The notes under the pieces were generated by a model that saw only the letters and a program-made list of their open reading frames with translations, was not told the origin of the DNA and did no database searches. Shown in pieces: positions 1 through 51,665 of a DNA stretch of 52,637 bases. The stretch spans positions 1-52,637 of IMG/VR virus record IMGVR_UViG_3300034018_000609. One strand, written 5' to 3'. This DNA is from a virus. Both the position numbers and the translations under genes were made by a program. Every line of letters begins with the position of its first letter. The first letter of the stretch is position 1.

Positions 1-1959
1 ATTCATTGCTCCTGGACGAACAAGAGCATTTGATGCTGCAAGTTCATTTAAATTTTTTACACCCATTTTAATTAAAAGGCTTGTGTATGGTGCAGCCTCA
101 CATTGGAAAACTCCTTTAGTATATCCATCTGAAATCATTTCATAAACTTTAGGATCCTCTAGGTCAATTTCTAATAAATTAATTTTCTTGTAATGATTCT
201 TTTCAATCTCTACAATAGCATCTTGCATAACACTAAGAGTTTTTAATCCAAGTGCATCAATTTTAATTAATCCAATTCTTTCTGCTTCTTCCATATCAAC
301 ACCAACAACTGGAATTCTTTCATCAGATCCTGGAGATGATCGTGTTTCTAAAGGTGCATATCTAAAGATTGGATTCTTGCTTGTCACAACTCCTGCAGCA
401 TGAATTCCAGTTCCACGAATACGTCCTCTTAATTGATCTCCATAAATTTCCACTTCTGGATATTTTTCTCTAAATGCTAATGTTGTTTTTGAATAACAAA
501 AATCTTCCCACGTGTCAACTTGTTTCAATGCTTTATTTACATCAGACAAAGGAATGTTTAAAACTCTAGCAACATCTCTTACAACACCTTTACCTTTAAA
601 CTCTAAGAAAGTAGCGATAGATGCAACGTGTCTATACTGTCTAACCAAATAATCTTTTACTTCTTCACGACGAGTATCTTGAATATCTGTATCAATATCT
701 GGAAAATCATTTCGTTCTGGATTAATAAATCGAAAAAACAAAAGTCCATATTTAATTGGATCAATGTCAGTGATTCCAAGTGTGAAACAAACTAAAGATC
801 CAGCAGACGATCCACGACCTGGACCTACCATAATTCCTTCCTTCTTTGCCCAAGCAATCATGCTTTGAACAACTAGAAAATATGGTGCAAATTTTTTATT
901 CTTAACAATCTCTAACTCTTCACGTAATCTATTAACATATTCTTCATTATCTTGTAATCCTTTAAGTTCTAATCCCTCAAATGCAATTTTTTCTAATTCA
1001 TTATCTGGACTTTTATATTGAACTGGAAGTAGGTCAAGTCCATCTTGAACATCATAGTCTTCTACTGTATCTGCTAATAACAATGTATTTGAATATATGT
1101 CTGGTCTATCTATACCCTGTTTTTCCATTGCTAATTTAATTTCATCATATGACAGTAGATGTATATCAAATTTATTAAAGGTAATTTGACGATCTTCTCC
1201 GTACAGGTAGTCAAGTCTTTGCATCATATTGGTTTTCTTTTTAGACTTTTCATATGTTGCTTCTTTATTAACTTTGCCATGAGTATTCATCAATAACTTA
1301 AACTCTTGAATTTCTTTTTGTGAAGTATCTGAATGGTGGCAATCTGGAGTTACAACAACCTTAATGTCAAATTCATCTGCAAGTTCAATTAAAGCCTTAT
1401 TTATTTCTGGGGTATTGTGTGGCATTACTTCAATATAATAATCATTACCAAAATTATTCTTAAACCATTTAATATTTTTCTTTGCAATGGCAAATTCATT
1501 TTCTTCTAATGCTTTTACAATTACACTACTTGGACATGCAGAAGTTACAATAATTCCTTCACGATATTTTTCAAGTATCTCAAAATCAAATCTTGGTTTC
1601 TTAAAAAAACCATCGGTCCAAGAAACTTCACTAATTTTATTTAAATTCTCTAAACCAAGTTGGTTCTTTGCTAGAAGAATAATATGATTATAAACAAGAT
1701 CTTGCTGACCTTCTCTTTCAGACTTATCTCTTGTATCAGATATGTCTGCACACATGTATCCTTCTAGCCCAAGAATTGGCTTAATGCCTTTGGATTTTGC
1801 TGTACGATAAAACTCACGGTGTCCTGAAAGTGTGCCGTGATCTGTTATTGCCAAGGCTGGCATTTTAAGATCTACGGCACGACTTAAATATTCTTCTGGA
1901 GTTGCAATTCCATCAAATAAGGAATAATGAGTGTGTACGTGCAATCCTGCGTAGTTCAT
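1..1959 (-). CDS. dnaE: DNA polymerase III alpha subunit (DnaE-like), N-terminal part, runs off left edge
   Basis: Replicative DNA polymerase of the bacterial C family, here phage-encoded. The visible 653 codons read open to base 1, so the C-terminal part lies outside the window. Residues 7-17 hold the PHP-domain signature HVHTHYS..DG, followed by ITDHGT around residue 40. The palm carries VGPGRGSSAGS and then PDIDTDIQD near residues 420-428, which matches the PDxDxD catalytic aspartate motif of DnaE. RPGAM at the very edge corresponds to the conserved NALVRPG segment of the family. The ATG at 1957-1959 is chosen because it directly precedes the PHP motif and follows the stop of the ssDNA-binding protein gene by one base, implying translational coupling. 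Family assignment is firm; whether the full protein has the usual C-terminal domains cannot be seen. Confidence 0.96.
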   Translation of the reverse strand, partial: MNYAGLHVHTHYSLFDGIATPEEYLSRAVDLKMPALAITDHGTLSGHREFYRTAKSKGIKPILGLEGYMCADISDTRDKSEREGQQDLVYNHIILLAKNQLGLENLNKISEVSWTDGFFKKPRFDFEILEKYREGIIVTSACPSSVIVKALEENEFAIAKKNIKWFKNNFGNDYYIEVMPHNTPEINKALIELADEFDIKVVVTPDCHHSDTSQKEIQEFKLLMNTHGKVNKEATYEKSKKKTNMMQRLDYLYGEDRQITFNKFDIHLLSYDEIKLAMEKQGIDRPDIYSNTLLLADTVEDYDVQDGLDLLPVQYKSPDNELEKIAFEGLELKGLQDNEEYVNRLREELEIVKNKKFAPYFLVVQSMIAWAKKEGIMVGPGRGSSAGSLVCFTLGITDIDPIKYGLLFFRFINPERNDFPDIDTDIQDTRREEVKDYLVRQYRHVASIATFLEFKGKGVVRDVARVLNIPLSDVNKALKQVDTWEDFCYSKTTLAFREKYPEVEIYGDQLRGRIRGTGIHAAGVVTSKNPIFRYAPLETRSSPGSDERIPVVGVDMEEAERIGLIKIDALGLKTLSVMQDAIVEIEKNHYKKINLLEIDLEDPKVYEMISDGYTKGVFQCEAAPYTSLLIKMGVKNLNELAASNALVRPGAMN

Positions 1960-1960
1960 A

Positions 1961-2617
1961 CTACCAATCTGTGTTGGTTGATGAAGTAGTTGATGGTGAG
2001 TCAAAGCCTAGATAAAAGGCTTCTTGCTCTGCATAAGGAACTTTGCGAAGTGCAAGTTCTAGTTGGAATGGCTCAATACCAGTCCAGTCAAATGGCTCTT
2101 TATCTGGTGCTGCTGGAATCATTGTGTAATTTGTTTCAGTACCCTGACCATTACGTTTCATTTTCCAAACAACATTTGAAATGCTACCAGTCTCAAGTGC
2201 ATATTCACGAATTGTATTAAAAGATGATTGCTTACTGATTCCCATAGACCAAATGGCTACGTATGGTTTTTCAATTCCATCATCAACTAATACGTTACAG
2301 TAAAAGCGGAGACGACCACGCCATCCAGCCTTTGGGTCTTTACGGTGCATTTCTTCTGCCCAGTCACGACCTTCTGTATCCATAGTGTCTACTGCTTTAC
2401 GCTTGTAATCTTTTGGATTTACATGCTCTTTAACAACTAGAGATAGTCCACGAGATGCACTATAATTTGCAGAGTCTTCATCTAGTTCTTCAATAAAGCG
2501 AATCTTTACTGATTGTCCATCAGCAAGTTTAAGCCATCTTACCTTTGGTGAGTTTTCATCGTATTTTGGTTTGTCGAGCAGGGCGTTGATGTTTTTTAGT
2601 CCCTTTACTACGCTCAT
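1961..2617 (-). CDS. ssb: Single-stranded DNA-binding protein (phage, gp32-like)
   Basis: A 218-residue protein placed directly upstream of the polymerase gene. Its N-terminal part has the pattern KVRWLKLADGQSVKIRF, resembling the start of phage ssDNA-binding proteins in which a 'W-x-L ... G-x-x-V-x-I-R-F' strand opens the OB-like core. The protein is rich in aromatic and basic residues and ends in a Ser/Thr/Asp tail (STTSSTNTDW), like the acidic or flexible tails of SSBs that recruit replication partners. The start at 2617 is supported by AAGGAG a few bases upstream. Context (polymerase, primase, helicase) agrees. No zinc-finger cysteines typical of T4 gp32 are visible, so the fold assignment is by family resemblance and context and not by a diagnostic motif. 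Confidence 0.75.
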   Translation of the reverse strand: MSVVKGLKNINALLDKPKYDENSPKVRWLKLADGQSVKIRFIEELDEDSANYSASRGLSLVVKEHVNPKDYKRKAVDTMDTEGRDWAEEMHRKDPKAGWRGRLRFYCNVLVDDGIEKPYVAIWSMGISKQSSFNTIREYALETGSISNVVWKMKRNGQGTETNYTMIPAAPDKEPFDWTGIEPFQLELALRKVPYAEQEAFYLGFDSPSTTSSTNTDW

Positions 2618-2631
2618 ATTATTCTCCTTTT

Positions 2632-4095
2632 TTATATTGTTATTTTAAAATCATCATACTGTTCTGCAGCATTACTGATTTTTTCTACTATTTTAGTATA
2701 CTCTTCCAATTCATTTTTGTCAAATGAATCTTTAGAAACTTTAAAACTATTTCCAGCATACAAAGATATCCAACTGTACAATAGCCAAGAAGGTGGTTGC
2801 ATTATATAAGAAAGATCTTTTTTGTTTGTTTCCATATCTTCAATAAATCTTTTTATATTATAATATTCATACTCTGGCATTGGATGTTTTAGTAAAAATT
2901 CTGACCAAAAATTGGTATTAGTTTTGTTTGTAACATAATGCATATATAGATAGGTTGTTATTGATTGTGCCATTCGTTCATTTAAATCATTAAAATAATC
3001 TATTTCCATATCAGCAATAGTATTATTAATATATTTATAGAAATAATTATCTAAAAATAAATATAATGCATTAATCATTCCTGATATTGCAGTAGCCTCC
3101 ATTGGTTCAAAGAATGATGTAGAAAGTCCTATACCTAAACAATTATTTATTAATATTTTTTTTGCATAACCTGGAGTAAAGTTAAAAGTTTTTATAATTT
3201 CTAGATCTTTTCCAAAAAACTTATAGGCTTCTTTTATTGCATCTTCTTCATTAATATATTTATTGTCATAAACGTATCCACAACCATACCTATTTTGTAG
3301 TGCAACTTTCCATGCCCAGCCATAATCCATTGCAATTGCTTGTGTATATGGAACTTCTTTACCATCTAAAGGAAGTTTGCAGGCAATTGCTGAAGTTGCT
3401 GGAAGAAACTTAGATGTGTCAACCCACTCAACATTATAAACATTATCTAAAAATAATCTAGAAAATCCAGATGCATCAATTAAAAAATCTAGACTAATGC
3501 TTGTTCCATTGTCTAGTGATAATTCCACAATGTCGTCATTACTGTTTGTTTTAGTGTCAACAACAATAGCATCAATAATTTCTATATTTTTTTTAACTAC
3601 CTCATTTTCTAAAAAATCTCCAAGCAATTTTGCATCTAAATGCAATGAGTATTCTTTTTTATTATTAATTGAATGAGTTTTATTTTTATAAGATATTTGT
3701 GCATTTAAATTAATAGAGTCTAAATTGCCATGCTCTTGCATTGCTATATTACAAAGTTTAAGGGTATTTTCATTATTATAAAAAATATTACTATCAAAAA
3801 GATTGTTAAATCCATGAAACCATGATTTGTTTTCTTTGTTCCATCCAGAAAACACAACACCATTTTTGATAGTTGCATTTGTATATTTAATTACATCCTC
3901 AACATCAATTTTTAAATCTTTAAAAACTTTATGTATGTTTGTTGTTAACCCTTCACCAGGCCCAAGAACTCCGATTTGTTTACTTCGCACCATTGTTATT
4001 TTTAACTTTGGATACCTTTTGTTTAATAGAAGAGCACTTAAACATCCAGCAGTTCCACCGCCAACAACCACAACATTTTTAATATCTCTGATCAT
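2632..4095 (-). CDS. Flavin-dependent halogenase (tryptophan halogenase family)
   Basis: A 487-residue FAD-dependent halogenase-like protein. Residues 12-17 are GGGTAG, the dinucleotide-binding loop. Residues 45-53 (GPGEGLTTN) match the family's GEA/GxTxP segment. Lys77 in TIKNGVVF aligns with the catalytic lysine (Lys79 of RebH/PrnA), and Glu333 in FFEPMEAT aligns with the catalytic-site glutamate (Glu346 of PrnA, Glu357 of RebH). The WxWxIP signature is present in altered form as WAWKVA at 260-265, followed by GCGYVY. Family members use FADH2, O2 and halide to form hypohalous acid and halogenate aromatic substrates; the substrate here is unknown. An in-frame upstream ATG at 4257 would add 54 residues lying within the preceding gene and lacking similarity to halogenases, so the ATG at 4095 just before the GGGTAG loop is chosen. 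It overlaps the AhpD-like gene by 17 bases. The gene is conspicuously AT-rich (bases 3001-3060 contain 8 G+C), suggesting separate acquisition. Confidence 0.87.
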   Translation of the reverse strand: MIRDIKNVVVVGGGTAGCLSALLLNKRYPKLKITMVRSKQIGVLGPGEGLTTNIHKVFKDLKIDVEDVIKYTNATIKNGVVFSGWNKENKSWFHGFNNLFDSNIFYNNENTLKLCNIAMQEHGNLDSINLNAQISYKNKTHSINNKKEYSLHLDAKLLGDFLENEVVKKNIEIIDAIVVDTKTNSNDDIVELSLDNGTSISLDFLIDASGFSRLFLDNVYNVEWVDTSKFLPATSAIACKLPLDGKEVPYTQAIAMDYGWAWKVALQNRYGCGYVYDNKYINEEDAIKEAYKFFGKDLEIIKTFNFTPGYAKKILINNCLGIGLSTSFFEPMEATAISGMINALYLFLDNYFYKYINNTIADMEIDYFNDLNERMAQSITTYLYMHYVTNKTNTNFWSEFLLKHPMPEYEYYNIKRFIEDMETNKKDLSYIMQPPSWLLYSWISLYAGNSFKVSKDSFDKNELEEYTKIVEKISNAAEQYDDFKITI

Positions 4096-4603
4096 AACCA
4101 ACTTTATTAATTTGTTCTGCAGCAGGTGCCCAAGATTGAGAATTTTCCTGAACTCCATGACCTTCAACAATTCTATTAAAGAAATTAAATGCAGCACAAA
4201 CTGCAACAGCATCTTTGACCTGTTCTTGTGTAAACCCAGCATCATAACATTCATCATATAATTTTTTAGTCATACTTGATGGATGTTTAGTTAGTTGTTC
4301 TACTAAATTAAAAATTGGGGTCAGTCTATTAGAAGTAGACTGAATACCGCTATCTAAAACCTCAATCTCAGAATTTATTGATTCTGCAAAAAGACGATGG
4401 GATCCATAGCAAAACCTACATCCATTAAGATATGATGTATATGCTGCAATAATTTCTCTATCTTGTGGAGACAATGATGAAGCCTCTCGTAAGACTTCTT
4501 GTGCAAATGAAAGCATCATCATATATCTTTTTTGATTTTCCATAAAGACATCAATAATTGTTGAATCTTCCTTAATTGAATCAAATACATTTTTTACACT
4601 CAT
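4079..4603 (-). CDS. AhpD-like / carboxymuconolactone decarboxylase family protein
   Basis: A 174-residue, mostly helical protein with Cys62-x2-Cys65-x3-His69 (NGCRFCYGSH), the redox motif of AhpD-type peroxidase-like proteins of the carboxymuconolactone decarboxylase superfamily. A second conserved-looking segment near residue 130 (YDECYDAGFTQEQVKDAV) resembles the helical repeat following the active site in the family. Known members reduce peroxides or act as disulfide-relay partners; the substrate here is unknown. The ATG at 4603 is preceded by GAGGTAG. The gene overlaps the halogenase start by 17 bases, so the two are probably translationally coupled and co-expressed. A TGATATAAT promoter candidate lies about 50 bases upstream inside the primase gene. 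A role in protecting against peroxide or hypohalous acid made by the halogenase is conceivable but purely inferred. Confidence 0.83.
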   Translation of the reverse strand: MSVKNVFDSIKEDSTIIDVFMENQKRYMMMLSFAQEVLREASSLSPQDREIIAAYTSYLNGCRFCYGSHRLFAESINSEIEVLDSGIQSTSNRLTPIFNLVEQLTKHPSSMTKKLYDECYDAGFTQEQVKDAVAVCAAFNFFNRIVEGHGVQENSQSWAPAAEQINKVGYDQRY

Positions 4604-4605
4604 GA

Positions 4606-5550
4606 CTACCTCAACATTTCTAGTATAGAATTATCAATTGAATTACTTAACTTAATTATATCAGAATCTTGCATATCCCCGATATCTTTATACTTGGTGT
4701 CTAATTGTATTATTGATACCCTCGATTTTAATTTATCAATCATTTTCTTAGACATTGACTTTCCAGCCTCATCATTATCTGCTATCAAATAAATCTCATT
4801 AAAATATTTTTCCAATAACTCTACTTGACTTTTTGAAATAGTTGCTCCAAGAGTAGCCACTGCTGGCATTCCAACTTGATCCAATCTTATTGCATCAAAT
4901 GATGACTCAACAACATATACTTTATCATTTGCTTTTACTCTATGCAAATTAAATAATGTTTTACTCTTTGGAAGTCCTGGAGTATTCTTAAAATCTTTTC
5001 CTTCAAGACTTCTGCCAACAAAACCAATTACCATTCCTTCTGGAGAGTGAACTGGAATTGTAACCATATCCTGCTTCTCAGAATATCCTAGGTTAAACTT
5101 ACTAACTGATGACTTAGTTACAAGTCTTCCATCAAAGTATCTCATTGCTCTTGGTGATTCAATTGCTTGTGAGTTCAGTCTCTTAATAATAACTTCATCA
5201 TATTGTACAAATGTTGGTGGGGTATATAGTTGTTTTGCTACTATTTGAGTAATATCAGATTCTTGTTCTTTACTTTTTATGTACCGCAAACTTTCAAAAT
5301 ATGATCTGTTGCTCATTTTCATTACTAATTCTTGTAGGTTAGCCACTTGTTGGCATCCAAAACAAAAGAACAATCCACTTTCTTTTGATACTTCTCCAGC
5401 AGGAGTCCTGTTGTTATTATGATATGGACAGAAAATTATGTAGTCGGAATCTACTTCTGATTGTATTGTGATTCCAGAGCCGATGAGAACTCTTTTAATT
5501 TGGTCTTCTGTGTATATATCGGATTGTACCCGTCTGCTGCGATCATCCAT
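4606..5550 (-). CDS. dnaG: DNA primase (CHC2 zinc finger + Toprim)
   Basis: A 314-residue primase that makes RNA primers at the phage fork. Cys41-x2-His44 and Cys63-x2-Cys66 (CPYH, CFGC) form the CHC2 zinc-binding domain, with TPAGEVSKESGLFFC between them. A Toprim domain follows: VVESSFDAIRL near residue 214 supplies the acidic metal ligand, with ATLGATIS and then LIADNDEAG, the DxD metal-binding motif, near 255-263. It is much shorter than bacterial DnaG (about 600 residues) and lacks the helicase-binding C-terminal domain, as in other small phage primases. The start at 5550 gives a 100-base overlap with the preceding gene in another frame; no ATG, GTG or TTG is available in frame between 5550 and the end of that gene, so the overlap appears real unless a rarer start is used. 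Confidence 0.93.
   Translation of the reverse strand: MDDRSRRVQSDIYTEDQIKRVLIGSGITIQSEVDSDYIIFCPYHNNNRTPAGEVSKESGLFFCFGCQQVANLQELVMKMSNRSYFESLRYIKSKEQESDITQIVAKQLYTPPTFVQYDEVIIKRLNSQAIESPRAMRYFDGRLVTKSSVSKFNLGYSEKQDMVTIPVHSPEGMVIGFVGRSLEGKDFKNTPGLPKSKTLFNLHRVKANDKVYVVESSFDAIRLDQVGMPAVATLGATISKSQVELLEKYFNEIYLIADNDEAGKSMSKKMIDKLKSRVSIIQLDTKYKDIGDMQDSDIIKLSNSIDNSILEMLR
4655..4663 (-). promoter_or_regulatory. Candidate extended -10 promoter for the AhpD-halogenase pair
   Basis: TGATATAAT on the minus strand, inside the 3' end of the primase gene and about 50 bases before the AhpD-like start. It is identical to the extended -10 element seen upstream of many structural genes in this window. It also encodes Asp-Ile-Ile of the primase, so the match could be coincidental. 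Confidence 0.4.
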
Positions 5551-5792
5551 TCAATATTCTTTTTCCCTACGTAGATTCCATATACCGTCAATTTAAATTC
5601 AAACCAGTTTTTGCTTTCATTGTAGTATACCGTAAAGTCTGGGTCTATGTCAATTCTTGGAACATAGGCACTTTCTCTCATTTGTACTAACAATATTCTA
5701 ATATATTCTTCTTTTAGTCTATAGATGTCTGACTCATCCTTGATGTTGCCATCTAGTTTAAAACATTTTATAGGCTTATGATGAATTGACAC
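5451..5792 (-). CDS. Hypothetical protein between helicase and primase
   Basis: A 113-residue protein of unrecognised family. It is acidic-aromatic, with a central stretch that looks like paired beta strands (FTVYYNESKNWFEFKLTVYG). The start is GTG at 5790-5792; the sequence TATAAT lies 5 bases upstream, spanning the helicase stop codon, so a leaderless start is possible although the extended TG is missing. Its last 100 bases overlap the beginning of the primase gene in a different frame, which suggests coupled synthesis. Its position between DnaB-like helicase and primase argues for a replication accessory role, but no motif shows this. The uninterrupted reading frame and protein-like composition support it as real. 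Confidence 0.7.
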   Translation of the reverse strand: MSIHHKPIKCFKLDGNIKDESDIYRLKEEYIRILLVQMRESAYVPRIDIDPDFTVYYNESKNWFEFKLTVYGIYVGKKNIEWMIAADGYNPIYTQKTKLKEFSSALESQYNQK

Positions 5793-5798
5793 ATCTTA

Positions 5799-7025
5799 TT
5801 ATAACTGCTTATCTTCATAATCCTTGTAGCGATAATAACCTTTGTCAAAGTCAACTTGAACTAGGAACTCACCCATAAAGCCATTTCTATTTTTTCTAAA
5901 GGCACATTCAATAATATCGCTGTTAGTTGCTCTACCAAGTGCAATTACCCAGTCTGCATCATAGGCAATCTGTCTTGACCAGGCAGTTTGTCCAAGTGTT
6001 GGAACACTACTAAGGTCATTTACATCATCTGGAGTTGCAGAAGATATTGCAATAATAGGAACTTCTTCTCCAATAGCCATTAGTTTTAGTTCACGAGAAA
6101 GATTTTTCATTCTTACTGTTTCATTATCTGACTTCTGGTTTGGACTCATTAACTGTAGGTAGTCAACAATAACAAAATCTGGACGGTATTGATCTATCTT
6201 TCCACGTAGAACTGACGGGCTAATCTCTCCACCCTGATCATTTGAAATGATATGAAATGGACTCTTTCCAGTAACTTTATCTTTGTGCCAAGTTTTAAAC
6301 ATCTCTGGCTCAACATGACCCTGACTAATTTTTCTGTGTGACCAAAGACCTTCGCCCATAATTGTAAATACACGATTTCTAACTTCTGTCTCAGACATTT
6401 CAAGGCTGATTACTAATGGGGTTTTGCCTTGTTTCCATGCCTGTACCGCAAAATAAAGAGCAAGCCATGACTTACCAATGCCTGGATAGGCTAAAAACAC
6501 TCCCAGTTGGCCTGGAGCGATACCACTTGGAAGGTAGTTATCAAATCCTGGCAAGCCAGTTTTAATACCTGTAATCCCAGCCTCTTCCATTTTACGCAAG
6601 TGATCAAAATATGCAGCAGCGGACTCAAAATCAGTAGCATCAATATCTCTAACAGATGATGTATTCTTTTTAAGTTCTGAGGTCTGAGTAATCAGAGAGT
6701 CTAAAGCAACTACTGAATTGCCACTTTGTACTTCTCCTGCTGCAGATCGTAATATTGTTTTAAGACTATCGTTTAGGTAGTCTCCTTGTAGTTCTGAAAG
6801 GTGATGTTTTGTTGCCCCAATATCTTCAACTACCTCGAAATCTCTAAACTTTTCAATTACTAAGGATAGTGGTGGAACGGAACTGTTTGCCTCAAAATAT
6901 TTTCTAATGAATGTCCATACATCTAAATGTGTTCGTAAAAGTCCATCAATATTTGCTTGTAGCAAAACGTGAATCTGTTTATCTTTTAAGACTGCATTTA
7001 ATACCTTTGATTCAATGCTAGCCAT
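5799..7025 (-). CDS. dnaB: Replicative DNA helicase (DnaB-like)
   Basis: A 408-residue hexameric-type helicase expected to unwind the fork ahead of the phage polymerase. Residues 1-125 correspond to a reduced N-terminal helical domain. The RecA-like core follows: TGLPGFDNYLPSG near 156-168, Walker A AYPGIGKSW at 179-187, VISLEMSETEV (the H1a-type segment with catalytic Glu) at 205-215, and Walker B FVIVDYLQL at 284-292. It is shorter than bacterial DnaB (about 450-470 residues). The start at 7025 overlaps the end of the previous small gene by 8 bases (translational coupling). Neighbouring primase and SSB genes make the role clear. Confidence 0.93.
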   Translation of the reverse strand: MASIESKVLNAVLKDKQIHVLLQANIDGLLRTHLDVWTFIRKYFEANSSVPPLSLVIEKFRDFEVVEDIGATKHHLSELQGDYLNDSLKTILRSAAGEVQSGNSVVALDSLITQTSELKKNTSSVRDIDATDFESAAAYFDHLRKMEEAGITGIKTGLPGFDNYLPSGIAPGQLGVFLAYPGIGKSWLALYFAVQAWKQGKTPLVISLEMSETEVRNRVFTIMGEGLWSHRKISQGHVEPEMFKTWHKDKVTGKSPFHIISNDQGGEISPSVLRGKIDQYRPDFVIVDYLQLMSPNQKSDNETVRMKNLSRELKLMAIGEEVPIIAISSATPDDVNDLSSVPTLGQTAWSRQIAYDADWVIALGRATNSDIIECAFRKNRNGFMGEFLVQVDFDKGYYRYKDYEDKQL

Positions 7026-7326
7026 TCAGCCACTCCTTTGCCATCAATCTTCTTTCTGCACGTTCTCTATCATCTTCGTCTTTATCTTTTTTAGCCTTAA
7101 TAATTTTTTCTGCCTGGTATGCAAAAGTATTCCAAGACGGACTCTCAGTAACCTTAAAATAGTATTCTAAAATATCGTAACATCCTTCAATTCCATACGA
7201 CTGAATAAGAGCATCTGCTGCCCATTGTTCAACGTTAAGATTCATTGATGGCTTTACATCATATCTTTCTTTGTGGTATTTACTATACCTTGAAAGCAAA
7301 GCCATTCGGTCTTTGCGGTCTGGCAT
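7018..7326 (-). CDS. Small protein preceding the helicase (possible helicase loader)
   Basis: A 102-residue protein with no diagnostic catalytic motif. It is helical and highly charged, with a central segment VEQWAADALIQSYG and a C-terminal basic-acidic helix (KKDKDEDDRERAERR). It overlaps the preceding gene at its start (stop and ATG share bases, TAATG) and the helicase gene at its end by 8 bases. Small helical proteins encoded immediately upstream of phage DnaB helicases are sometimes helicase loaders or accessory factors, so this is a reasonable guess from position only. The family is not recognised. Confidence 0.72.
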   Translation of the reverse strand: MPDRKDRMALLSRYSKYHKERYDVKPSMNLNVEQWAADALIQSYGIEGCYDILEYYFKVTESPSWNTFAYQAEKIIKAKKDKDEDDRERAERRLMAKEWLNG

Positions 7327-7532
7327 TACTCAGAGATTTCTGCTTTGGCTTCGTTAATTTTATCAGTTAGTTTATCTTCAACAAACTTGTAAACACGTTC
7401 CATTGCTTCGTTAGTTGTCTCTCCATCTTTCTTAGAGTCAACAACTCCAAGATCAAGTCTTAATGATTGGAAGTTTCCAAGATTAAGTGTATAGCCTAAA
7501 GTTACAGAAACCTTAGTGTTATCGTTTTCCAT
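7326..7532 (-). CDS. Small conserved-type phage protein, unknown function
   Basis: A 68-residue protein with a beta-rich N-terminal half (KVSVTLGYTLNLGNFQSLRLDLG) and a helical acidic C-terminal half (VYKFVEDKLTDKINEAKAE). GGATG lies a few bases before the ATG at 7532. It is tightly packed in the replication operon with a one-base overlap to the next gene. No function is recognised. Confidence 0.7.
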   Translation of the reverse strand: MENDNTKVSVTLGYTLNLGNFQSLRLDLGVVDSKKDGETTNEAMERVYKFVEDKLTDKINEAKAEISE

Positions 7533-7550
7533 TTTACATCCATTCAGTAG

Positions 7551-8093
7551 TTAGATAGATTCAGACCAGATAGGAATGAAGCGTCCATCTTCAGTTCTCG
7601 TATATGTAAGTATACCATCGCCCATTCTCCTAGTCAACTCTTGTTTAGTAGGAGTCATGTTGTTTGTTACAAGGCCATCTTTTCTTGGTTGACCAATATG
7701 AATTGATGCCAATATGTCCCTTATTTCCCTTATGTGACTTTCTGAATAATAACATCTTATCTGCCAGCCACGCTTTCCACCTATGCTAGATCCTATTGGT
7801 GCTGGAATTGTTCCACGTTTAATAAGAGTAGGAATATACTTTTTATGTCTGTTAATAAGTATAGCAGTTTCTCCAATAGTATATGCCTTTTCTCTTTTCT
7901 TTTTAAATTCTGCAATAAAACAAGTTTCAATCCTGTCTTTATTTATATTATAAAGCGCAACAATTCCGTCTGATCTGTTTCTGTGATGCACCTTGACTAA
8001 ATCATTATTTAAAAACCAAATAGTTTTATTACCTGAAACTATAGCGGACTGATTGTAGTTTTGGCCCTCAATATTTCCTGTTGTAGAATCCAT
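7551..8093 (-). CDS. Helix-turn-helix (MerR/excisionase-like) DNA-binding protein
   Basis: A 180-residue protein. Residues about 70-125 carry AYTIGETAILINRHKKYI followed by KRGTIPAP, GGKRGWQIRCY and YSESHIREIRDI, the arrangement of a winged-helix MerR or excisionase domain: an HTH, a wing with a Gly-rich turn, then the 'Y-s-e-s-x-I' helix. It could regulate transcription or mark a replication site. The N-terminal segment (KTIWFLNNDLVKVHHRNRSDG) is of unknown fold. The ATG at 8093 has GAGGG upstream and overlaps the end of the zinc-ribbon gene by 55 bases in another frame. The DNA-binding call is moderately supported by pattern; target and role are unknown. Confidence 0.72.
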   Translation of the reverse strand: MDSTTGNIEGQNYNQSAIVSGNKTIWFLNNDLVKVHHRNRSDGIVALYNINKDRIETCFIAEFKKKREKAYTIGETAILINRHKKYIPTLIKRGTIPAPIGSSIGGKRGWQIRCYYSESHIREIRDILASIHIGQPRKDGLVTNNMTPTKQELTRRMGDGILTYTRTEDGRFIPIWSESI

Positions 8094-8227
8094 GATCCCT
8101 CTTTGCTGCTGTCTGGTGGATGGTAAAATTTTCTTTTACCACAAATTACACAGTATACTTCAATATGTTCTTTTGTACTGTACTGTCTATCAACAAAAAC
8201 AATACCGCCACATCTTGCACACTTCAC
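8039..8227 (-). CDS. Small zinc-ribbon protein
   Basis: A 62-residue protein with Cys3-x2-Cys6 and a second pair CVIC about 20 residues later, spaced as in a zinc ribbon. The start is GTG at 8225-8227, sharing one base with the TAG stop of the upstream tail protein gene. Its 3' end overlaps the HTH gene by 55 bases. Such small ribbons are common in phages as nucleic-acid or protein-binding adaptors; no specific role is apparent. It sits at the border between the tail and replication modules. Confidence 0.72.
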   Translation of the reverse strand: MKCARCGGIVFVDRQYSTKEHIEVYCVICGKRKFYHPPDSSKEGSWILQQEILRAKTTISPL

Positions 8228-8664
8228 TAATTTGGTATTCCAATTGCAAGAACATTAACATCAACAGTTGCCACTCCAGTAGTATCAAATCTTACAAGAA
8301 ACGAAGCGCTAGTGTTTGACACTTGAGTAATAACCACTGTAACATTTTTTCCAGCATCTGTATTTCCTGTGTTAAAAGGAGTTGCTACTACAATTGGTGG
8401 ATACTGAAAACTATAATTAACTGTAAATGGAATTTGATTTTCACTGGTAGTAATAGTTTTAGAACTTGCTACGTTTGTTGTAATACCAACAATTCCTGCT
8501 CTTCCAGTTGCAACTGTATTACTTTTTCCATTGCTTGCTACAATTTGTGTTACATTTTGAGTCGTTCCAACAATATCGCTTAGTTGATTAACTGTTTCAA
8601 CCAAAGAATACATATAAGAAACATCTAAAGGTTGCCCTCTTTGTGGTACTGTTAGTTTTGCCAT
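8227..8664 (-). CDS. Minor tail / receptor-binding-type structural protein
   Basis: A 145-residue, Thr/Val/Asn-rich protein. The N-terminus (VPQRGQPLDVSYMYSLVETVNQLSD) looks like a short helical trimerisation segment. The C-terminal half (FTVNYSFQYPPIVVATP ... VTVVITQVSNTSASFLVRF) reads like the beta sandwich found at the tips of many tail fibres (H-type lectin-like arrangement). It is the last gene of the tail module and has its own TGATATAAT element with GGAGGAATA between it and the ATG. Function is inferred from composition and position. Confidence 0.65.
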   Translation of the reverse strand: MAKLTVPQRGQPLDVSYMYSLVETVNQLSDIVGTTQNVTQIVASNGKSNTVATGRAGIVGITTNVASSKTITTSENQIPFTVNYSFQYPPIVVATPFNTGNTDAGKNVTVVITQVSNTSASFLVRFDTTGVATVDVNVLAIGIPN

Positions 8665-8673
8665 TATTCCTCC

Positions 8674-8682
8674 ATTATATCA
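8674..8682 (-). promoter_or_regulatory. Extended -10 promoter of the last tail gene
   Basis: TGATATAAT on the minus strand, 9 bases before the ATG at 8664. The 9-base gap is GGAGGAATA, so the Shine-Dalgarno sequence directly abuts the -10 hexamer and only part of it could be in the transcript. No clear -35 is seen. Confidence 0.65.
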
Positions 8683-8688
8683 TTTAAC

Positions 8689-9468
8689 TTAAGGTATTGT
8701 AATTGTTCCAGATTCATACAACTTTAATGCTGGAACTACAATTTTAGAAATTCCCTCTGGCTGAATTAAAATTTTTATTGTTGAAGTTGCTGTGTTTGGT
8801 ATTGTATAAGTAATAACTGCTGGTTGAGATCCTTTATCAGGACTTGCAATTGCAGTACCGTGATAAGAATAATTAGTTGCTGAATTAATTTTAACAAAAA
8901 TATCATACTTTAATCTTTTAGGCATATATTCTATAACTTCCATATACACCATTCCTTTTTCTGGTGTTCTGCGCTCAGAAACCATTACAGAGTCTGTCCA
9001 AGTAACTGAAAAACTTCCTGCTGGAGCAGTGGTTACACCTATCTTAGTTACTGTTGCAGCAACTGTTTCAATTGGTTCTGCGTCTACATAATAAATTGGG
9101 GACCATGCAGAGGCTCTGTTAAGATCATCAGAAACAACTCTATATCTAATACTGTGTTTATTAGAATCATTAACTGGTGGCAAATCTTTTTTTAATAATA
9201 AAGATTTTTTAATATTTTTATCTTTAGAAATCCATTTGGCATATAAAGTTATATTTGCTGCTGCTGCTGTATAAGTACTTGCTAGTCCTGGGCCATAAAG
9301 AGTTCCATAACCGAGAGGATTAGTTGTCCATCCAAGAAAATTATAGCCAGTTTTAATAAGATTTCCAGTATTGCCAAGAATAGTTATGGTGGCTGCTACG
9401 CTATAATTGGTTGCATCTACTGGAACTGATCCTGATGTAGGAAAAGATCCATTGTAAGTCACTATCAT
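8689..9468 (-). CDS. Minor tail protein with InlB-type (Flg_new) repeat
   Basis: A 259-residue protein. Residues 3-79 follow the pattern of the Listeria-Bacteroides (InlB B / Flg_new) repeat: VTYNG, GSVPVD, GNTGNLIKTGYNFLGW, then ITLYAKW. This beta-grasp-like repeat is known from bacterial surface proteins. The C-terminal 170 residues have the composition of a beta-sandwich (KLYESGTITIP at the end). It overlaps the preceding minor tail gene with TAATG and is probably a virion surface protein that contacts the host envelope. The repeat assignment is good; the function is inferred. Confidence 0.72.
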   Translation of the reverse strand: MIVTYNGSFPTSGSVPVDATNYSVAATITILGNTGNLIKTGYNFLGWTTNPLGYGTLYGPGLASTYTAAAANITLYAKWISKDKNIKKSLLLKKDLPPVNDSNKHSIRYRVVSDDLNRASAWSPIYYVDAEPIETVAATVTKIGVTTAPAGSFSVTWTDSVMVSERRTPEKGMVYMEVIEYMPKRLKYDIFVKINSATNYSYHGTAIASPDKGSQPAVITYTIPNTATSTIKILIQPEGISKIVVPALKLYESGTITIP

Positions 9469-35056: not shown

Positions 35057-38000
35057 TTATGCTACAGTTGATATAGAACTTTGCCAAGTGGCGTCTTTAA
35101 ATACCTTCAAATAGTCAGTCTCCATATAAATACCTTCATTGTCATCTACAATAATTTTATTTGTGCCAACGTAATTCTTATAAACCTCTGCAGGATTAAC
35201 AATATACCTGCTGTCCCTACTCTTAACTAAAACGTTATCCCAATTTGAATCGTCCCAATAGTTCCAATTTTGATCGTTTATTTCTCCCCACGTTCTAAAC
35301 AAAATCTGTTGTTCAAGTTGTGAATTGGTTCCTTTATAAAAAGATATGTTATTAAAAGTCATTAGATGTTTTAAATTTATTTTTCCATTGTAAGAATTTA
35401 AATTAAGGTTAACTGGAAAAGACATACCTAAAACTGCCCATCTTTGAATTGACATAGTTGGCTCTGCCACATAAAGTCCATCTAAATAATAATACAATTC
35501 TGTAAATGGTAGGCCATCAGATTTTGTTTTAGCAGAAATAGTTGCTCTGTCTGCATTCAACGAGTTGGCTTGAATATAAAATTCTATTGTATCGTTTGCA
35601 TACTCTATTTCAAATATTAAAACTGGATCTTCAGGAAATGCCCATAAATCTGACCTAATAAACATTTGAATAGCACTTAAAGAATACTTAAGGTCTAAGC
35701 CTGGATTAATGTCAATACTGAATCCACGACTTAAATTGTTTAGTCCGTCTCTTAATTCAATCCCGCTTTTTCTTGTAAGATATAAATATGGAACACTCTC
35801 TTTGTCAATAACATATGGATTTACTCCTTTGTAATCAGCAACACCACTTGCCAATTTGTATGGAATTAAATCTATTCCATATCTACTTGTTACTGGATTT
35901 GAATCATTTGCATTTAAACTTTTTGCTGCAAACTCTATTTTTCTTAAAGAAAGTTTATTATGTAATATACCAAACACTTTAAACCTAATGGAGTAAACCA
36001 TTGATATAGTGTTAAAATCAATATTTTTTGATGGATAAATTAAATAATTATCAACAATTTCAAACCTTTCAGTTTGCCAATCCGCTTCAGTATTTAAATT
36101 TAATATTCTTTTTTTAATTGCTGGGTTTGTTGTTGCATAGTCTGAGTCTGTCTGCGTAATGCCTTGAGAAATATCTTGAAAAGTAACATATACTCTTACG
36201 TTTGAATCGTTAGTATTTAATGAATCGGAATTGTCTACCCAATAGGTGTCTCCCTCTTCTTTTACTTCAGATGGTGCTGGATAGTCAATATTAAACTGAA
36301 TAAAATCAATATCTGTTATAGTTTCTTCGTCTTCATCTAAAACATCTTTTGCAAGTACTGATAGTGGAATATAATCTTCCCAATAACCAAAAACTGAAAT
36401 ATCAATAAAAAACTTTCCATAATCTTCAAAAGAAAATAAGGTATAACTAGAAACATGATTAATGGTAGAGTTTGCAAAATTAAAAGTTCCATCATCGTAG
36501 AAGTATGAGTCTAGCGTAAAAGATGTATGCTTATATGTATTAATTCCAACATTATATATATTTCCAGTAAACATATTTTCTTTATTTGGTTGGCTTCCAA
36601 TATATAGTTTTAATGATCCTGGATTTGCAAAAAATTGAGCAAGCCCACCTGTTGTATTGTTTGCAATTAATTTTGAAATTTGAATTCCGGCAGTAAAAGT
36701 TGTAACGGGACAAGTATGCGATCTAATCGTAGTTGAAACTCCAGCATAAGTAAAAACATAATTTAGTAGAGTAGATTCTTTTTTAATGGCAAAACTGTTT
36801 ACTCCGTCTGTTATGTACAAGAACATAGCATTTTGATTTTCTTCTAATTTAAATGTTCCAACAATAGAATCTATAGTGTTTGAAATAAACGAAAGATTTT
36901 CAAAATATATATAAGAATTTGTGTCCCAGGTTCCGGATGGTTTCAAACTAAAAAATTTTGACCCTGTGGTTTGAATCAATTTATTAGCAGCCTCTAGTTC
37001 AGTTATAGTTTTATTTTCAGGTAGAACAAAGTTAGGCAATTGATAGTCTGGGGTTTTAAGTGTTGATATTCCAGGAATCAAATTATCCTCAATTCCAGAA
37101 TCCCAAGACCTTGTAGTTGGATATGTAACGTTATTGCTATATCCTGCAAATGGATAGTCTATTTCTACTGTTGATCCACCATAATAATTATCTATAATTT
37201 CTGGTGTTGTTGGTATACCCTGACCTAAAATATAATGAACTTTTGCTGCATTTGTTGAAATAGAATATGGATATAAAGAAATACAATCAATCTTAATTTG
37301 ATCCACATATGTTTCATATGCATAGAAAGCAATCCAGTCATTACTTTCGGTTGTGTGTATTTCATCATATTGTGAAGGAAGATTCATTAACAATGTATCA
37401 AATATTAATGATCCAACCTCTTCACCATTAACTAAAAGAATTGCCTTATTTTTAATAAGTTTAATATGAATAAGCATTGGTCTATACCATTCGCCAACAA
37501 AATGTGAAATAAAATTTCCATCAATTGCCAAAGTTAAAAAACAATCTTTTACATATAGACCATCTGTTGATCCTATTGGTCCCAAAATTCTTTTTGCATC
37601 TGATGTATTTACATCTGCCTGCAACCAAACCTCTAAAGTATAATCATTGTGTCTACCAGATTCATTTAAAAATCCATAGCCTGGAAAAATAAAAGATGGT
37701 TGAGTATTTGTAATTAAATCTGCTTCATCTACAAAATAATTTATATCTGTCCAAGAGTCTTCTGTATTTTTCCAATAAGACCAACTTTCTTCAGCAACCT
37801 GTTCCCAAGTTCTATAATCAATTATTTCTGAGTGTGGGATTAACTGAACTGCTCTGTCTGATCCATAAACAAGCGGTACACCAAAATTTTTACCAGCCAA
37901 AGAATTGTTGTCAACAACATAATATCCGCTATTTGCATTAAGACCATAAGCATTTGCTTCAACTACTCCATCTAAAGATAAATTAATAGTTGCTGGACTT

Positions 38001-38629
38001 GAAAGTTTTGTTTGACCTAATGATGTTGCATTAAACTCTTCACTGTGTTGACCTGCAGTAATCCCATTAAAATGAATATTATAATCTGCAATAGTTGCTC
38101 CTCCTGGAGAGGAAACAACTTTTATAACAAATTTAAATTCTTTGTCAAGGTCTGGAAAAGTAAATGTTGCTGAAATTGGAGTCCAAACTTCTGATTCAAT
38201 AATTGTAAAATCTTTAAACTGTGATCCTCCATCATACTCATAACCAATAGATATTGAAACAATGTTTGCACTTGCTGTATAGTAGTATGTGCTTAAAGCA
38301 AAAGTTTGTAGTGTAGGATTTAAAGATTGAAAATTTACCAAGTTTGGACTTTTTATATAGTATGTTGTATTTGTACTAGAAGGAAGCGTTGATCTAAAAA
38401 CTTTGCGATAACTATCTGGAAATGGTTGAACTTGGTTTTCTCCATTAAAAACTGGAGTTGATCCAGCAATAACTGTCCCACCTGTTAATGTCCAGTTGGT
38501 GGCATTACTAATATCCCTTTGTGCTTCTGATATTAAAGAGATATAGTCTGCTGAATCATCTAATGGCCAAATTGCAAGCGGATGCTCGGCAAAAATTTTT
38601 TCGGCATATAAATTAGAAGGAGTATTCAT
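35057..38629 (-). CDS. Large minor tail / surface protein with LamG-like domains
   Basis: A 1190-residue beta-rich protein starting with HPLAIWPLDD, typical of phage proteins with concanavalin-like LamG domains. Jelly-roll-like blocks are seen near 310-430 (NDYTLEVWLQADVNTSDAKRI, DGLYVKDCFLTLAIDG, MLIHIKLIKNKAILLVNGEEVG) and again near 560-700 and 980-1110 (PVLIFEIEYANDTIEFYIQANS). It lacks transmembrane or enzymatic motifs. It lies away from the other tail genes, between portal unit and ribonucleotide reductase. TGGTAAAAT ends 9 bases before the ATG and no good Shine-Dalgarno is present. It probably binds carbohydrate at the host surface, an inference from fold. Confidence 0.78.
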   Translation of the reverse strand: MNTPSNLYAEKIFAEHPLAIWPLDDSADYISLISEAQRDISNATNWTLTGGTVIAGSTPVFNGENQVQPFPDSYRKVFRSTLPSSTNTTYYIKSPNLVNFQSLNPTLQTFALSTYYYTASANIVSISIGYEYDGGSQFKDFTIIESEVWTPISATFTFPDLDKEFKFVIKVVSSPGGATIADYNIHFNGITAGQHSEEFNATSLGQTKLSSPATINLSLDGVVEANAYGLNANSGYYVVDNNSLAGKNFGVPLVYGSDRAVQLIPHSEIIDYRTWEQVAEESWSYWKNTEDSWTDINYFVDEADLITNTQPSFIFPGYGFLNESGRHNDYTLEVWLQADVNTSDAKRILGPIGSTDGLYVKDCFLTLAIDGNFISHFVGEWYRPMLIHIKLIKNKAILLVNGEEVGSLIFDTLLMNLPSQYDEIHTTESNDWIAFYAYETYVDQIKIDCISLYPYSISTNAAKVHYILGQGIPTTPEIIDNYYGGSTVEIDYPFAGYSNNVTYPTTRSWDSGIEDNLIPGISTLKTPDYQLPNFVLPENKTITELEAANKLIQTTGSKFFSLKPSGTWDTNSYIYFENLSFISNTIDSIVGTFKLEENQNAMFLYITDGVNSFAIKKESTLLNYVFTYAGVSTTIRSHTCPVTTFTAGIQISKLIANNTTGGLAQFFANPGSLKLYIGSQPNKENMFTGNIYNVGINTYKHTSFTLDSYFYDDGTFNFANSTINHVSSYTLFSFEDYGKFFIDISVFGYWEDYIPLSVLAKDVLDEDEETITDIDFIQFNIDYPAPSEVKEEGDTYWVDNSDSLNTNDSNVRVYVTFQDISQGITQTDSDYATTNPAIKKRILNLNTEADWQTERFEIVDNYLIYPSKNIDFNTISMVYSIRFKVFGILHNKLSLRKIEFAAKSLNANDSNPVTSRYGIDLIPYKLASGVADYKGVNPYVIDKESVPYLYLTRKSGIELRDGLNNLSRGFSIDINPGLDLKYSLSAIQMFIRSDLWAFPEDPVLIFEIEYANDTIEFYIQANSLNADRATISAKTKSDGLPFTELYYYLDGLYVAEPTMSIQRWAVLGMSFPVNLNLNSYNGKINLKHLMTFNNISFYKGTNSQLEQQILFRTWGEINDQNWNYWDDSNWDNVLVKSRDSRYIVNPAEVYKNYVGTNKIIVDDNEGIYMETDYLKVFKDATWQSSISTVA

Positions 38630-38662: not shown

Positions 38663-40702
38663 TTAGTTGCTAGTTTCTAATTTTATTTCACAGTAATCTG
38701 TTGTGCAATACATTTCTCCAACGGAATCAAGATTCTCAATACCGTCATAAATTGCATCAAAGTTAATATGAGCAACCTTTCCAACATAACCATCGTACTC
38801 TTCTTTAGTGATTTGTGTGTATGGCTGTTGTGGATAAGTGTGATTTCCCATTGGAAGGAAAGAAACTGCTTTCAATTGACCCTCGTACATATGAAGTGCT
38901 GGAGCAATATGTTTTGTTTCTGTTTCTTTGTCAAAAGATAAAGTCACAGACACTCCATTATCTGACCAATATTTTTGTGTAGTTGCAGCAAGACCAATCT
39001 TTTCAAACAAACTTACATCTTTCTCTGATCTTGGATGTCCTGAAGATACTGGGAAATATACTACACTAGTATTTGCTGATACTAAATCATCTTCAATTTT
39101 ATACCCTGCCGCTTTAAATAAATGTAGCATTGGATCTGTATTTCCAAAACGAATTGCACGTAAGAAATATTCTCCACCAACAGACCAGTGAACTCCTGGA
39201 GATGCTCCAGAAAGTAATGAAACTGATCCTGAAGGTTTTACTGTAGTTACACGAATTGATTCACGAACACATAGCCATTCTGAATACTGCTTGTCGTAGT
39301 GACGAATCTTATTGTATCCTTCGTCCATCCATTCTCTGGTTGTTGGCATTCCATTAATATCGGTAAATGATGCAATACCAGTTAATGATGTTCCAATTCT
39401 ACGGTTTCTTTGCATGATACCGTTTGTAATTTGCCAGTGTGTTGGAAGTAGAGTTACAGTTTTTCCATAAAGATATGCAAATTTTAAGGTACGCATAAAA
39501 TCTTCTTTGTCTGTATGACGATTTAAGTGAACCTCAACTAATGTGCATAACTCATAAGATTCTAGTGGTTGTTCTGCACAAGGATTAAAACCCATAACAC
39601 GATAGTCTTTTCCATCTGCTGGATCTGCTAGTCTTCCATAATTTCTTGCAACATCAAGCCAAATAAAACCAGGCTCTCCATTATCTGCAATCAAATCTAC
39701 ATAATCTTCATAATGAGTTCCAACTTCAGCAGAGATAGAGTTATTACTCATCCATGCCCATCCTGGATTTTCTGAATCAAATGAGTTACGATCTGGAAAT
39801 AGTTCTGAATTCTTAAGATTAATAAAGTCTTTATCGTTTGGATTTCCAAGAGCAAGTGTTGCAGATCTACGAACATTGCCAGAAACAACACAAGTTCCAA
39901 TAAGATTTACAATATCTACAATTGCTCTAGAATCTAACTTCTCTCCTGCTCTAGAACCAATTACTTTACGGATCATTGTATGTAGATCCATTAATGGTTT
40001 TGGACCGCTAGCAACCCCACCAAAGCCCTTAATTGGGGCTCCTAGAGGACGGATTAAGTCATAGTTAAATTCTTGAATTGGTTGGTTTGCTCTTAAAAAT
40101 GAATTAAGCAAAAGTCTAACAGATTCTACCCATCCTTCACGAGTATCTGGAATTTCATATACAGATGCTGGTTCTGTTGGTGCATAGATGGATAGATCTT
40201 TTTCTTGACCTACCGTGTCAAATCCAACTCCAATACCAAGCATTAATGCATCCATAACCCAAGCAAATAAAGATCCTGGATCGTTACGATCAATGTCTCT
40301 TGTTGAAACCATTGCACAGTTTTGAAGAGATGCAGAATTTTTTCTTTCCATTGTCATTGGGGTACCAAAAGCCCAAAGACCTCTTCCTGGAGGTGTCCAC
40401 TTAAGATTAAACATACGGTCATATGCTTCTTGTGCTGATTTTTGTGCTTTATAGTCGTTCCAAGGCAGTCTGTTTTCTTTTGCATGGTTCTTCTGTACTG
40501 AATACATACCCTCGATTACTCTTTTACAAACCTCATACCATCTTTCCTTAGTGCCATCATCTTTTACACGGGAGTAAGTACGAACAAAAGTAATCTCTCC
40601 TAATGAGTTTCCACCTGCATCTTTGAACCCAAATGGTGGTTCAATCTCTATATATTTGTTTACAAAATCATCAGAAAAACGAAAAGAAAATATGTCAGAC
40701 AT
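38663..40702 (-). CDS. Class II (adenosylcobalamin-dependent) ribonucleoside-triphosphate reductase
   Basis: A 679-residue monomeric B12-dependent ribonucleotide reductase that makes dNTPs for phage DNA. NPCAEQPL near residues 373-380 contains the thiyl-radical Cys375 and the Glu of the NxCxE motif. Cys129 (QNCAMVSTR) is the first redox Cys of the active site, and the C-terminal pair Cys666-x4-Cys671 (CTTDYC) is the shuttle, as in the Lactobacillus leichmannii enzyme. Length and pattern match that monomeric type, and no NrdB partner is needed or seen. AAGGAG precedes the ATG and a promoter with a -35 match is upstream. It relies on host cobalamin, so the host must make or import B12. Confidence 0.95.
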   Translation of the reverse strand: MSDIFSFRFSDDFVNKYIEIEPPFGFKDAGGNSLGEITFVRTYSRVKDDGTKERWYEVCKRVIEGMYSVQKNHAKENRLPWNDYKAQKSAQEAYDRMFNLKWTPPGRGLWAFGTPMTMERKNSASLQNCAMVSTRDIDRNDPGSLFAWVMDALMLGIGVGFDTVGQEKDLSIYAPTEPASVYEIPDTREGWVESVRLLLNSFLRANQPIQEFNYDLIRPLGAPIKGFGGVASGPKPLMDLHTMIRKVIGSRAGEKLDSRAIVDIVNLIGTCVVSGNVRRSATLALGNPNDKDFINLKNSELFPDRNSFDSENPGWAWMSNNSISAEVGTHYEDYVDLIADNGEPGFIWLDVARNYGRLADPADGKDYRVMGFNPCAEQPLESYELCTLVEVHLNRHTDKEDFMRTLKFAYLYGKTVTLLPTHWQITNGIMQRNRRIGTSLTGIASFTDINGMPTTREWMDEGYNKIRHYDKQYSEWLCVRESIRVTTVKPSGSVSLLSGASPGVHWSVGGEYFLRAIRFGNTDPMLHLFKAAGYKIEDDLVSANTSVVYFPVSSGHPRSEKDVSLFEKIGLAATTQKYWSDNGVSVTLSFDKETETKHIAPALHMYEGQLKAVSFLPMGNHTYPQQPYTQITKEEYDGYVGKVAHINFDAIYDGIENLDSVGEMYCTTDYCEIKLETSN

Positions 40703-48047: not shown

Positions 48048-48464
48048 TTATGACTGATCTGTAACTTCGCCAAGCATGATCATTTCTCCTTGACATACAG
48101 TCCAAACCCTTGTAGCATCTGTAAGTTGAACATCAAAAACATCACCAGTTCTTAGTTGTTTAGATTGAGCAGGGGTCAAAGAAACTAAAAACTCTCCATC
48201 GCCATCAGTTACTGATTGTACTGGTACTAACTCAAATATTAAGTCATCTCCAACGTTATCAGAGTACCGTCTAAAATCGACCTCAATATCCCAATCATCG
48301 ACTACAATTGGATCTCCTGCATCATCTTGTACATATATTCTAAAAGAGGCGCTATCGCCAATTACAACCGTCCAGTTAACCAATGGTGGCTTATTTCCAA
48401 TATTGTAGGTAGAAGGAGCCTTTACATCCATCTCTGATTCGTCTGGATTGCGGTATTTAGCCAT
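48048..48464 (-). CDS. Small baseplate/fibre structural protein (BppU-like Ig domain)
   Basis: A 138-residue protein. The pattern GDSASFRIYVQDDAGDPIVVDDWDIEVDFR and LTPAQSKQLRTGDVFDVQLTD resembles the small Ig-like domain at the N-terminus of BppU-type baseplate proteins, in which a short stretch describes strands around a 'G-D-x-x-x-F' turn. It shares layout with the 133-residue gene at 51658. TGATATAAT ends 6 bases before the ATG, predicting a leaderless mRNA. Confidence 0.7.
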   Translation of the reverse strand: MAKYRNPDESEMDVKAPSTYNIGNKPPLVNWTVVIGDSASFRIYVQDDAGDPIVVDDWDIEVDFRRYSDNVGDDLIFELVPVQSVTDGDGEFLVSLTPAQSKQLRTGDVFDVQLTDATRVWTVCQGEMIMLGEVTDQS

Positions 48465-51515: not shown

Positions 51516-51665
51516 CTATTGAGTTATTGTAATGGCGCTATTTACTTCAATTACTTCTATTTCTTGATCAATTCCCGTTAAATTTGGAGCGGTATTGAGA
51601 ACAAGATTTAGATCTGATTGATAAACAGTTATATAATCTTCTTCATAGATAAAAACTTCAGGCAA
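51516..51665 (-). CDS. Possible small protein, TTG start, overlapping the upstream gene
   Basis: An open frame of 49 codons from TTG at 51663-51665 to TAG at 51516-51518. It reads PEVFIYEEDYITVYQSDL, then NLVLNTAPNL and a final ITITQ, an acidic strand-rich peptide of believable composition. It overlaps the end of the 133-residue gene by 8 bases in another frame. No Shine-Dalgarno is visible, so it may be made by coupling or by a frameshift extension of the upstream protein. Function unknown. Confidence 0.5.
   Translation of the reverse strand: MPEVFIYEEDYITVYQSDLNLVLNTAPNLTGIDQEIEVIEVNSAITITQ

Follow-up and report, generated by a model that had tools for sequence, protein, structure and literature searches.

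A flavin halogenase gene in a swappable slot among the replication genes of a probable freshwater actinophage

The DNA considered here (the window: all 52,637 nt of IMG/VR record IMGVR_UViG_3300034018_000609) encodes a protein of the flavin-dependent halogenase family, and the gene lies in a slot between those for primase and SSB where phages nearly identical on both sides carry no insert or a very different halogenase. The assignment to the family is well supported by sequence and by a predicted structure, and the enzyme class is held with considerable confidence. The role of the enzyme is much less certain. The whole reading, that this is a working FADH2-dependent halogenase, acting on an aromatic target other than free tryptophan and passed among phages as a fitness accessory, stands at about an even chance. 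The features of concern, all on the minus strand, are:

1961-2617, minus: SSB, a border of the slot (PHROG 9721, 1.9e-42)
2632-4095, minus: flavin-dependent halogenase (PF04820), 487 aa (Pfam, PHROG 2928, PDB matches, AF2 with Foldseek, catalytic residues, dN/dS)
4079-4603, minus: AhpD-like/CMD-family peroxidase-related protein, 174 aa, CxxCxxxH (PF02627 1.7e-8, TIGR01926, PDB 3c1l/6k40)
4606-5550, minus: DNA primase, the other border of the slot (Toprim and CHC2 zinc finger by Pfam; PHROG 47, 1e-55)
5799-7025, minus: DnaB-like helicase (PF03796 5.6e-29, PHROG 19)
2648-4647, minus: inserted cassette, wholly absent from the related phages L022 and L024 (blastn breakpoints 2647 and 4648)
2646-4105, minus: segment exchanged for another halogenase in the related phage L102 (alignment break; the AhpD-like gene stays)

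The protein and its active site

The gene runs from an ATG at 4095 to a stop ending at 2632, and on the plus strand the interval, read for open reading frames, is full of stops; a sequence-only reading of this DNA had the interval right and left the strand unstated. A second in-frame ATG upstream, at 4257, would lengthen the protein to 541 aa, but since it falls within the AhpD-like gene and homologues begin at the equivalent of 4095, the latter is taken as the start. The Pfam model Trp_halogenase (PF04820) matches residues 7-448 with an E-value of 8.7e-88 and 295.6 bits (cut-off, 21 bits), and PHROG 2928 matches with an E-value of 1.9e-96, scores that, for comparisons of sequence, are far beyond chance. 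Among sequences in the PDB, the best match is a Pseudoalteromonas enzyme (9luq), followed by BrvH, PrnA, Xcc4156, and VirX1. The AlphaFold2 model of the protein (pLDDT 78, pTM 0.81) is of moderate confidence, weaker near residues 41-50, 81-110, and 131-150. All 50 PDB matches listed for it by Foldseek are flavin halogenases (query TM 0.74-0.83); the best among those listed is Xcc4156, and chains of PrnA, BrvH, the Thal type, and VirX1 also match, the fold agreeing across the chain with a TM of about 0.8.

The features on which the sequence-only reading had drawn are all found at the residues it gave: the GGGTAG FAD loop (GxGxxG) at residues 12-17, Lys77 within TNATIKNGVVF, Glu333 within FFEPMEAT, and WAWKVA at residues 260-265, where WxWxIP has lost its proline. 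In the multiple alignment, Lys77 falls at PrnA Lys79 (Lys79 also in Thal numbering) and Glu333 at PrnA Glu346. The call of a flavin halogenase thus has family, catalytic residues, and fold in agreement. The modification of WxWxIP is real and varies among close relatives: WAWKVA recurs in L004 and L010, a 92% relative, L005, keeps the proline (WAWKVP), and L011 has the canonical form (WAWKIP). By the same multiple alignment, PrnA Ser347 is replaced by Ala334 and PrnA Gly349 by Ala336. With both positions alanine and the proline gone, halide chemistry could be altered. The change at Ser347 is common to nearly all slot halogenases and to those of HTVC008M, P-SSM2, and S-H38 (EPLEAT or EPLEAS instead of EPLEST), which suggests a trait of the clade rather than damage. 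The catalytic Lys and Glu are present in every aligned slot member except one, L017. The gene is clearly under purifying selection, with dN/dS of 0.10-0.25 against four close relatives, higher than the 0.01-0.05 of primase and helicase.

What might the substrate be? Tryptophan halogenases of groups A and B are reported to have the Trp4 motif (defined, like Trp1 and Trp2, in PMC8269204), the region of which is tied to tryptophan binding, and group C, e.g., BrvH, to lack it (PMC8269204). Residues 400-487, inspected by eye, contain no Trp4-like stretch, in which regard the protein resembles group C, so far as sequence can tell. Its Trp1 reads GLTTNI as against ATIPSL, and its Trp2 HGFNN as against HLFGN. 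A free-tryptophan halogenase of group A or B was rejected on these grounds, and the absence of the tryptophan-binding motif makes free tryptophan an unlikely substrate. The leading candidate is an aromatic group carried by a target of the host, the virion, or a competing phage.

The slot and its occupants

The genes around the halogenase encode SSB, a putative DnaE-type polymerase (by our own reading of its N-terminal sequence), primase, and the DnaB-like helicase, which also served as the query to find relatives; the sequence-only reading was right to speak of a replication module. Upstream of the halogenase is the AhpD-like gene, the last 17 nt of which overlap the start of the halogenase. 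Its product has the core motif CxxCxxxH in the form CRFCYGSH and scores 34.8 bits (E 1.7e-8) with the CMD family of Pfam (PF02627), above the cut-off of 23, and 69.6 bits (2.7e-19) with TIGR01926 peroxid_rel, under the cut-off of 81.8. Its PDB matches (3c1l/6k40) are of the AhpD type. No AhpD-like gene was found in other GenBank phages. Homologues on bacterial plasmids are 28-38% identical, and in three such contexts the listed neighbors include no halogenase.

The slot is empty in L022, L024, and L025. The first two are 91.6-95% identical to the window on both flanks, their primase and SSB genes being separated by 23 nt; on the primase side the alignment breaks at 4648, just within the end of that gene. 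In L102, nucleotide identity is 94.8% over window positions 2-2645 and 92.8% over 4106-8911, with nothing aligned in between. Its halogenase is 35% identical in amino acids to that of the window and its AhpD-like protein 91%. The alignment ends at 2645 and resumes at 4106, so the halogenase has been replaced and the AhpD-like gene kept. In L017, with flanks 93-96% identical to the window's, the slot holds a flavoenzyme of the halogenase family (positions 6902-8446 of that locus) only 28% identical to the window's, in which DPLTGSS stands in place of EPLEST and the catalytic Glu is lost. It is perhaps, to go by its sequence, a non-halogenating flavoenzyme, in which case the slot may serve some phages for a purpose other than halogenation. 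The breakpoints of swaps were mapped in L102, L017, and L107. Overall, phages about 92-96% identical on both flanks have either no insert or an AhpD-like gene with a halogenase 28-35% identical to the window's, and the slots of other phages hold a small, tryptophan-rich, orphan membrane protein (MP), with or without a halogenase. The site between primase and SSB is a swappable insertion site.

Among 94 non-identical slots, 46 are empty, 28 hold MP only, 12 an AhpD-like gene and a halogenase, and 8 MP and a halogenase, counts that come from identity-ranked searches biased toward loci found by halogenase, AhpD, MP, and helicase queries and that do not represent natural frequencies. Every slot halogenase (20 of 20) has one partner, AhpD-like or MP, none has both, and no AhpD-like gene occurs without a halogenase in the 94. 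The sequence-only reading was silent on the AhpD-like partner, on the swapping of halogenases in near-identical phages, and on the missing Trp4 motif, all of which are observed.

MP is about 97 aa long, with three long helices predicted, and is highly conserved; members are 60-84% identical to one of their number, and seven tryptophans are invariant in 20 aligned members. Tryptophan makes up about 8% of MP, as against 3.0% of 84 hydrophobic ORFs of like size from the same loci, 7 of which also reach 7%. The protein occurs at 385 loci in IMG/VR (L035:6595-6885 and 384 further loci, with the motif WSSTVKTLPTIIWFN), often beside phage halogenases and also alone between primase and SSB; it was not found in the window. 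GenBank phages and plasmids gave no match, Pfam, PHROGs, and NCBIfam none of significance. Nor did the PDB give a significant match to its fold, and a SWEET transporter (E 4.4) was taken for a chance hit. MP adjoins a halogenase in 44 of 78 loci examined, preceding it in the slot and following it elsewhere, and in loci read closely the stop of one gene usually overlaps the start of the other. No AhpD, MP, or oxygenase of the kinds found beside phage halogenases accompanies bacterial halogenases in 80 loci.

Relatives of the halogenase and of the phage

In a tree of 113 proteins (quick IQ-TREE, SH-aLRT support only), the window's halogenase falls in a clade of 18 rows from the slot (SH-aLRT 99), nested in a clade of 57 rows (SH-aLRT 100) that is viral save for one Tabrizicola protein and separate from PrnA, BrvH, 45 bacterial rows, and VirX1. 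The protein's phylogenetic place is thus within a viral Trp_halogenase clade, in a tree that took in no non-halogenating oxidoreductase families. AhpD and MP partners are mixed inside the slot clade, a sign that halogenases and partners have been reshuffled, and the halogenases that adjoin MP belong to two deep clades. L017 lies outside the slot clade; it and L274 have long branches and are placed unsurely. What appears to be new is the slot itself, with its swaps and alternating partners, together with the orphan, tryptophan-rich membrane protein; the largely open-access literature searched yielded no description of these or of the slot clade.

A phage halogenase as such is not new. Matches occur in 82 GenBank phage records, and such enzymes were already known from cyanophages (over 60 records), from pelagiphage HTVC008M, and from DSL-LC01, a freshwater actinophage (PMC10611076). 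The suggestion that this enzyme would extend the theme of VirX1 is therefore not supported, and the two are not close relatives. VirX1 (cyanophage Syn10, PDB 6QGM) is likewise a phage-encoded flavin-dependent halogenase, with the catalytic Lys and Glu and the same fold, but it is about 28% identical, comes from a different host and gene context, and has EST and WVWNIP where the window has EAT and WAWKVA. Membership of the VirX1 group was rejected: the tree puts VirX1, the other Syn10 halogenase, and the second halogenase of G002 in a separate clade (SH-aLRT 100). G002 (IMGVR_UViG_3300009161_000003), a close relative of the window, carries a cassette of the window's type in addition to this second halogenase (L270:5771-7429), downstream of which lie MP, an LLM-luciferase-like/2OG-oxygenase fusion, and several 2OG-Fe(II) oxygenases. 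Three further viral contigs (L205, L249, and L256) have two halogenase genes close together.

The halogenases of HTVC008M, P-SSM2, and S-H38 share the large viral clade and the EPLEAT motif with the window's and are about 30-36% identical to it, but they come from Kyanoviridae (T4-like) phages and have other neighbors, in HTVC008M phytanoyl-CoA dioxygenase and terminase genes. DSL-LC01, a phage of freshwater Actinomycetia, resembles the window's kin in having whiB and a Trp_halogenase gene (PMC10611076). Its enzyme, however, is 25% identical, sits on a long branch, reads EPLDFS (Asp for Glu), and is encoded beside tail and glycosyltransferase genes. PrnA, RebH, and Thal share with the window's enzyme the fold (TM about 0.8), the FAD loop, and equivalents of Lys79 and Glu346; they differ in having Trp4, Ser347, and Gly349, in length (about 530 aa as against 487), and in belonging to a biosynthetic cluster. 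BrvH, which also lacks Trp4, and Xcc4156 are proteobacterial halogenases, not found in phage, and BrvH lies in a separate clade.

The view of the phage as an actinobacterial siphophage is supported by its portal and capsid proteins, which are nearest to those of Streptomyces phages (45-47% and about 40-43% identical, respectively), and by whiB, which serves as an actinophage marker (PMC6802176, PMC10202952) and exceeds the cut-off in 7 of the 12 IMG/VR records of relatives that the count covers. Those seven records are 73-116 kb, the Streptomyces phages about 120-134 kb. GC content is 30-40%. A freshwater actinobacterium, plausibly one of the Nanopelagicales, is the probable host, and the window probably represents part of a larger genome, of about 110 kb if its relatives are a guide. 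Elsewhere in the window, on the minus strand, are a B12-dependent (class II) ribonucleotide reductase of 679 aa (38663-40702), a 1190-aa protein near the portal gene that looks structural and has no Pfam or PHROG match (35057-38629), and, near the tail fiber genes, two genes of one family of unknown function, PHROG 1084 (48048-48464 and 51658-52059).

Possible function

By analogy with PrnA, RebH, and Thal, reduced flavin from a host reductase would react with O2 to form a C4a-hydroperoxide, and attack by halide would give hypohalous acid, which Lys77 would activate and Glu333 would help deliver to an aromatic carbon. In Thal, FADH2, O2, and halide yield HOX, Lys79 is indispensable, and both H2O2 and HOX leak (PMC7948982). 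A host source of FADH2 is presumed because no PF01613-type flavin reductase was found in eight related phage records, some of them fragments. The target may be an exposed aromatic group, rather than free tryptophan, on a molecule of the host, the virion, or a competing phage. The AhpD-like protein may, again by analogy, remove H2O2 or hypohalite that escapes the flavin site. The cassette would serve as a fitness accessory expressed together with the replication genes, and changing selection on the target may drive the exchange of halogenases. Swapping between near-identical phages suggests as much, that the target is under shifting selection, and precise gene replacement is what might be expected of traits of host range, superinfection exclusion, or host takeover. 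A known anti-phage defense family was considered and rejected, PADLOC finding no match for the halogenase, the AhpD-like protein, or MP.

Perhaps the protein shares the fold but is instead a flavin monooxygenase that has lost halogenation and hydroxylates or oxidizes its target, as QhpG acts on tryptophan within a protein. The alanines at the positions of Ser347 and Gly349 and the lost proline of WxWxIP could be so explained, Br- and I- are scarce in fresh water, and the occupant of the same slot in L017 has DPLTGSS and no catalytic Glu; the NCBIfam models of QhpG and LodB/GoxB also show a weak resemblance, with scores far under the cut-offs. However, all other aligned slot members retain both catalytic residues, HTVC008M, P-SSM2, and S-H38 have EPLEAT too, WxWxIP is preserved in close relatives, and the best structural matches are halogenases, so that loss of halogenation seems rather unlikely. 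It is also doubtful that the gene belongs to a pathway that decorates small molecules or glycans (a secondary metabolite or surface polysaccharide), since in the window's slot the halogenase has the AhpD-like gene as its sole companion, with neither transferase nor oxygenase, and the neighbors within the window, outside of which the rest of the genome lies, are replication genes. Such a pathway has been proposed for halogenase clusters of cyanophages in a comparative study of jumbo phages (PMC7824862), and other phage halogenases, likewise the second one of G002, do lie beside 2OG-Fe(II) oxygenases, methyltransferases, and glycosyltransferases.

It is highly improbable that the enzyme releases free hypohalous acid to poison the host or its competitors while the AhpD-like protein gives protection. 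Leakage of free HOX is documented for Thal (PMC7948982), and a gene of the AhpD-type, peroxidase-related kind is always beside this type of halogenase in the loci examined. But HOX is short-lived and unselective, an unlikely weapon, its bulk production would not need the strong divergence of halogenase sequence between phages, and slots of the MP type lack AhpD.

A further reading, to which only slight probability is given, is that in freshwater actinophages interchangeable halogenases modify aromatic residues of a membrane-associated protein. MP would be the substrate or a membrane anchor for the halogenase, and in the window's lineage the AhpD-like gene would take its place. If true, this would be a phage-directed system of protein halogenation, e.g., for superinfection exclusion.

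The literature searched, largely open-access, yielded no report of a natural substrate for any phage halogenase. Halogenases with altered active sites are of biocatalytic interest too. Some phages differ, over the stretch compared, mainly at the halogenase gene, so their phenotypes and substrates can be compared, and natural swaps, empty sites, and two mutually exclusive partners offer a direct handle on the substrate.
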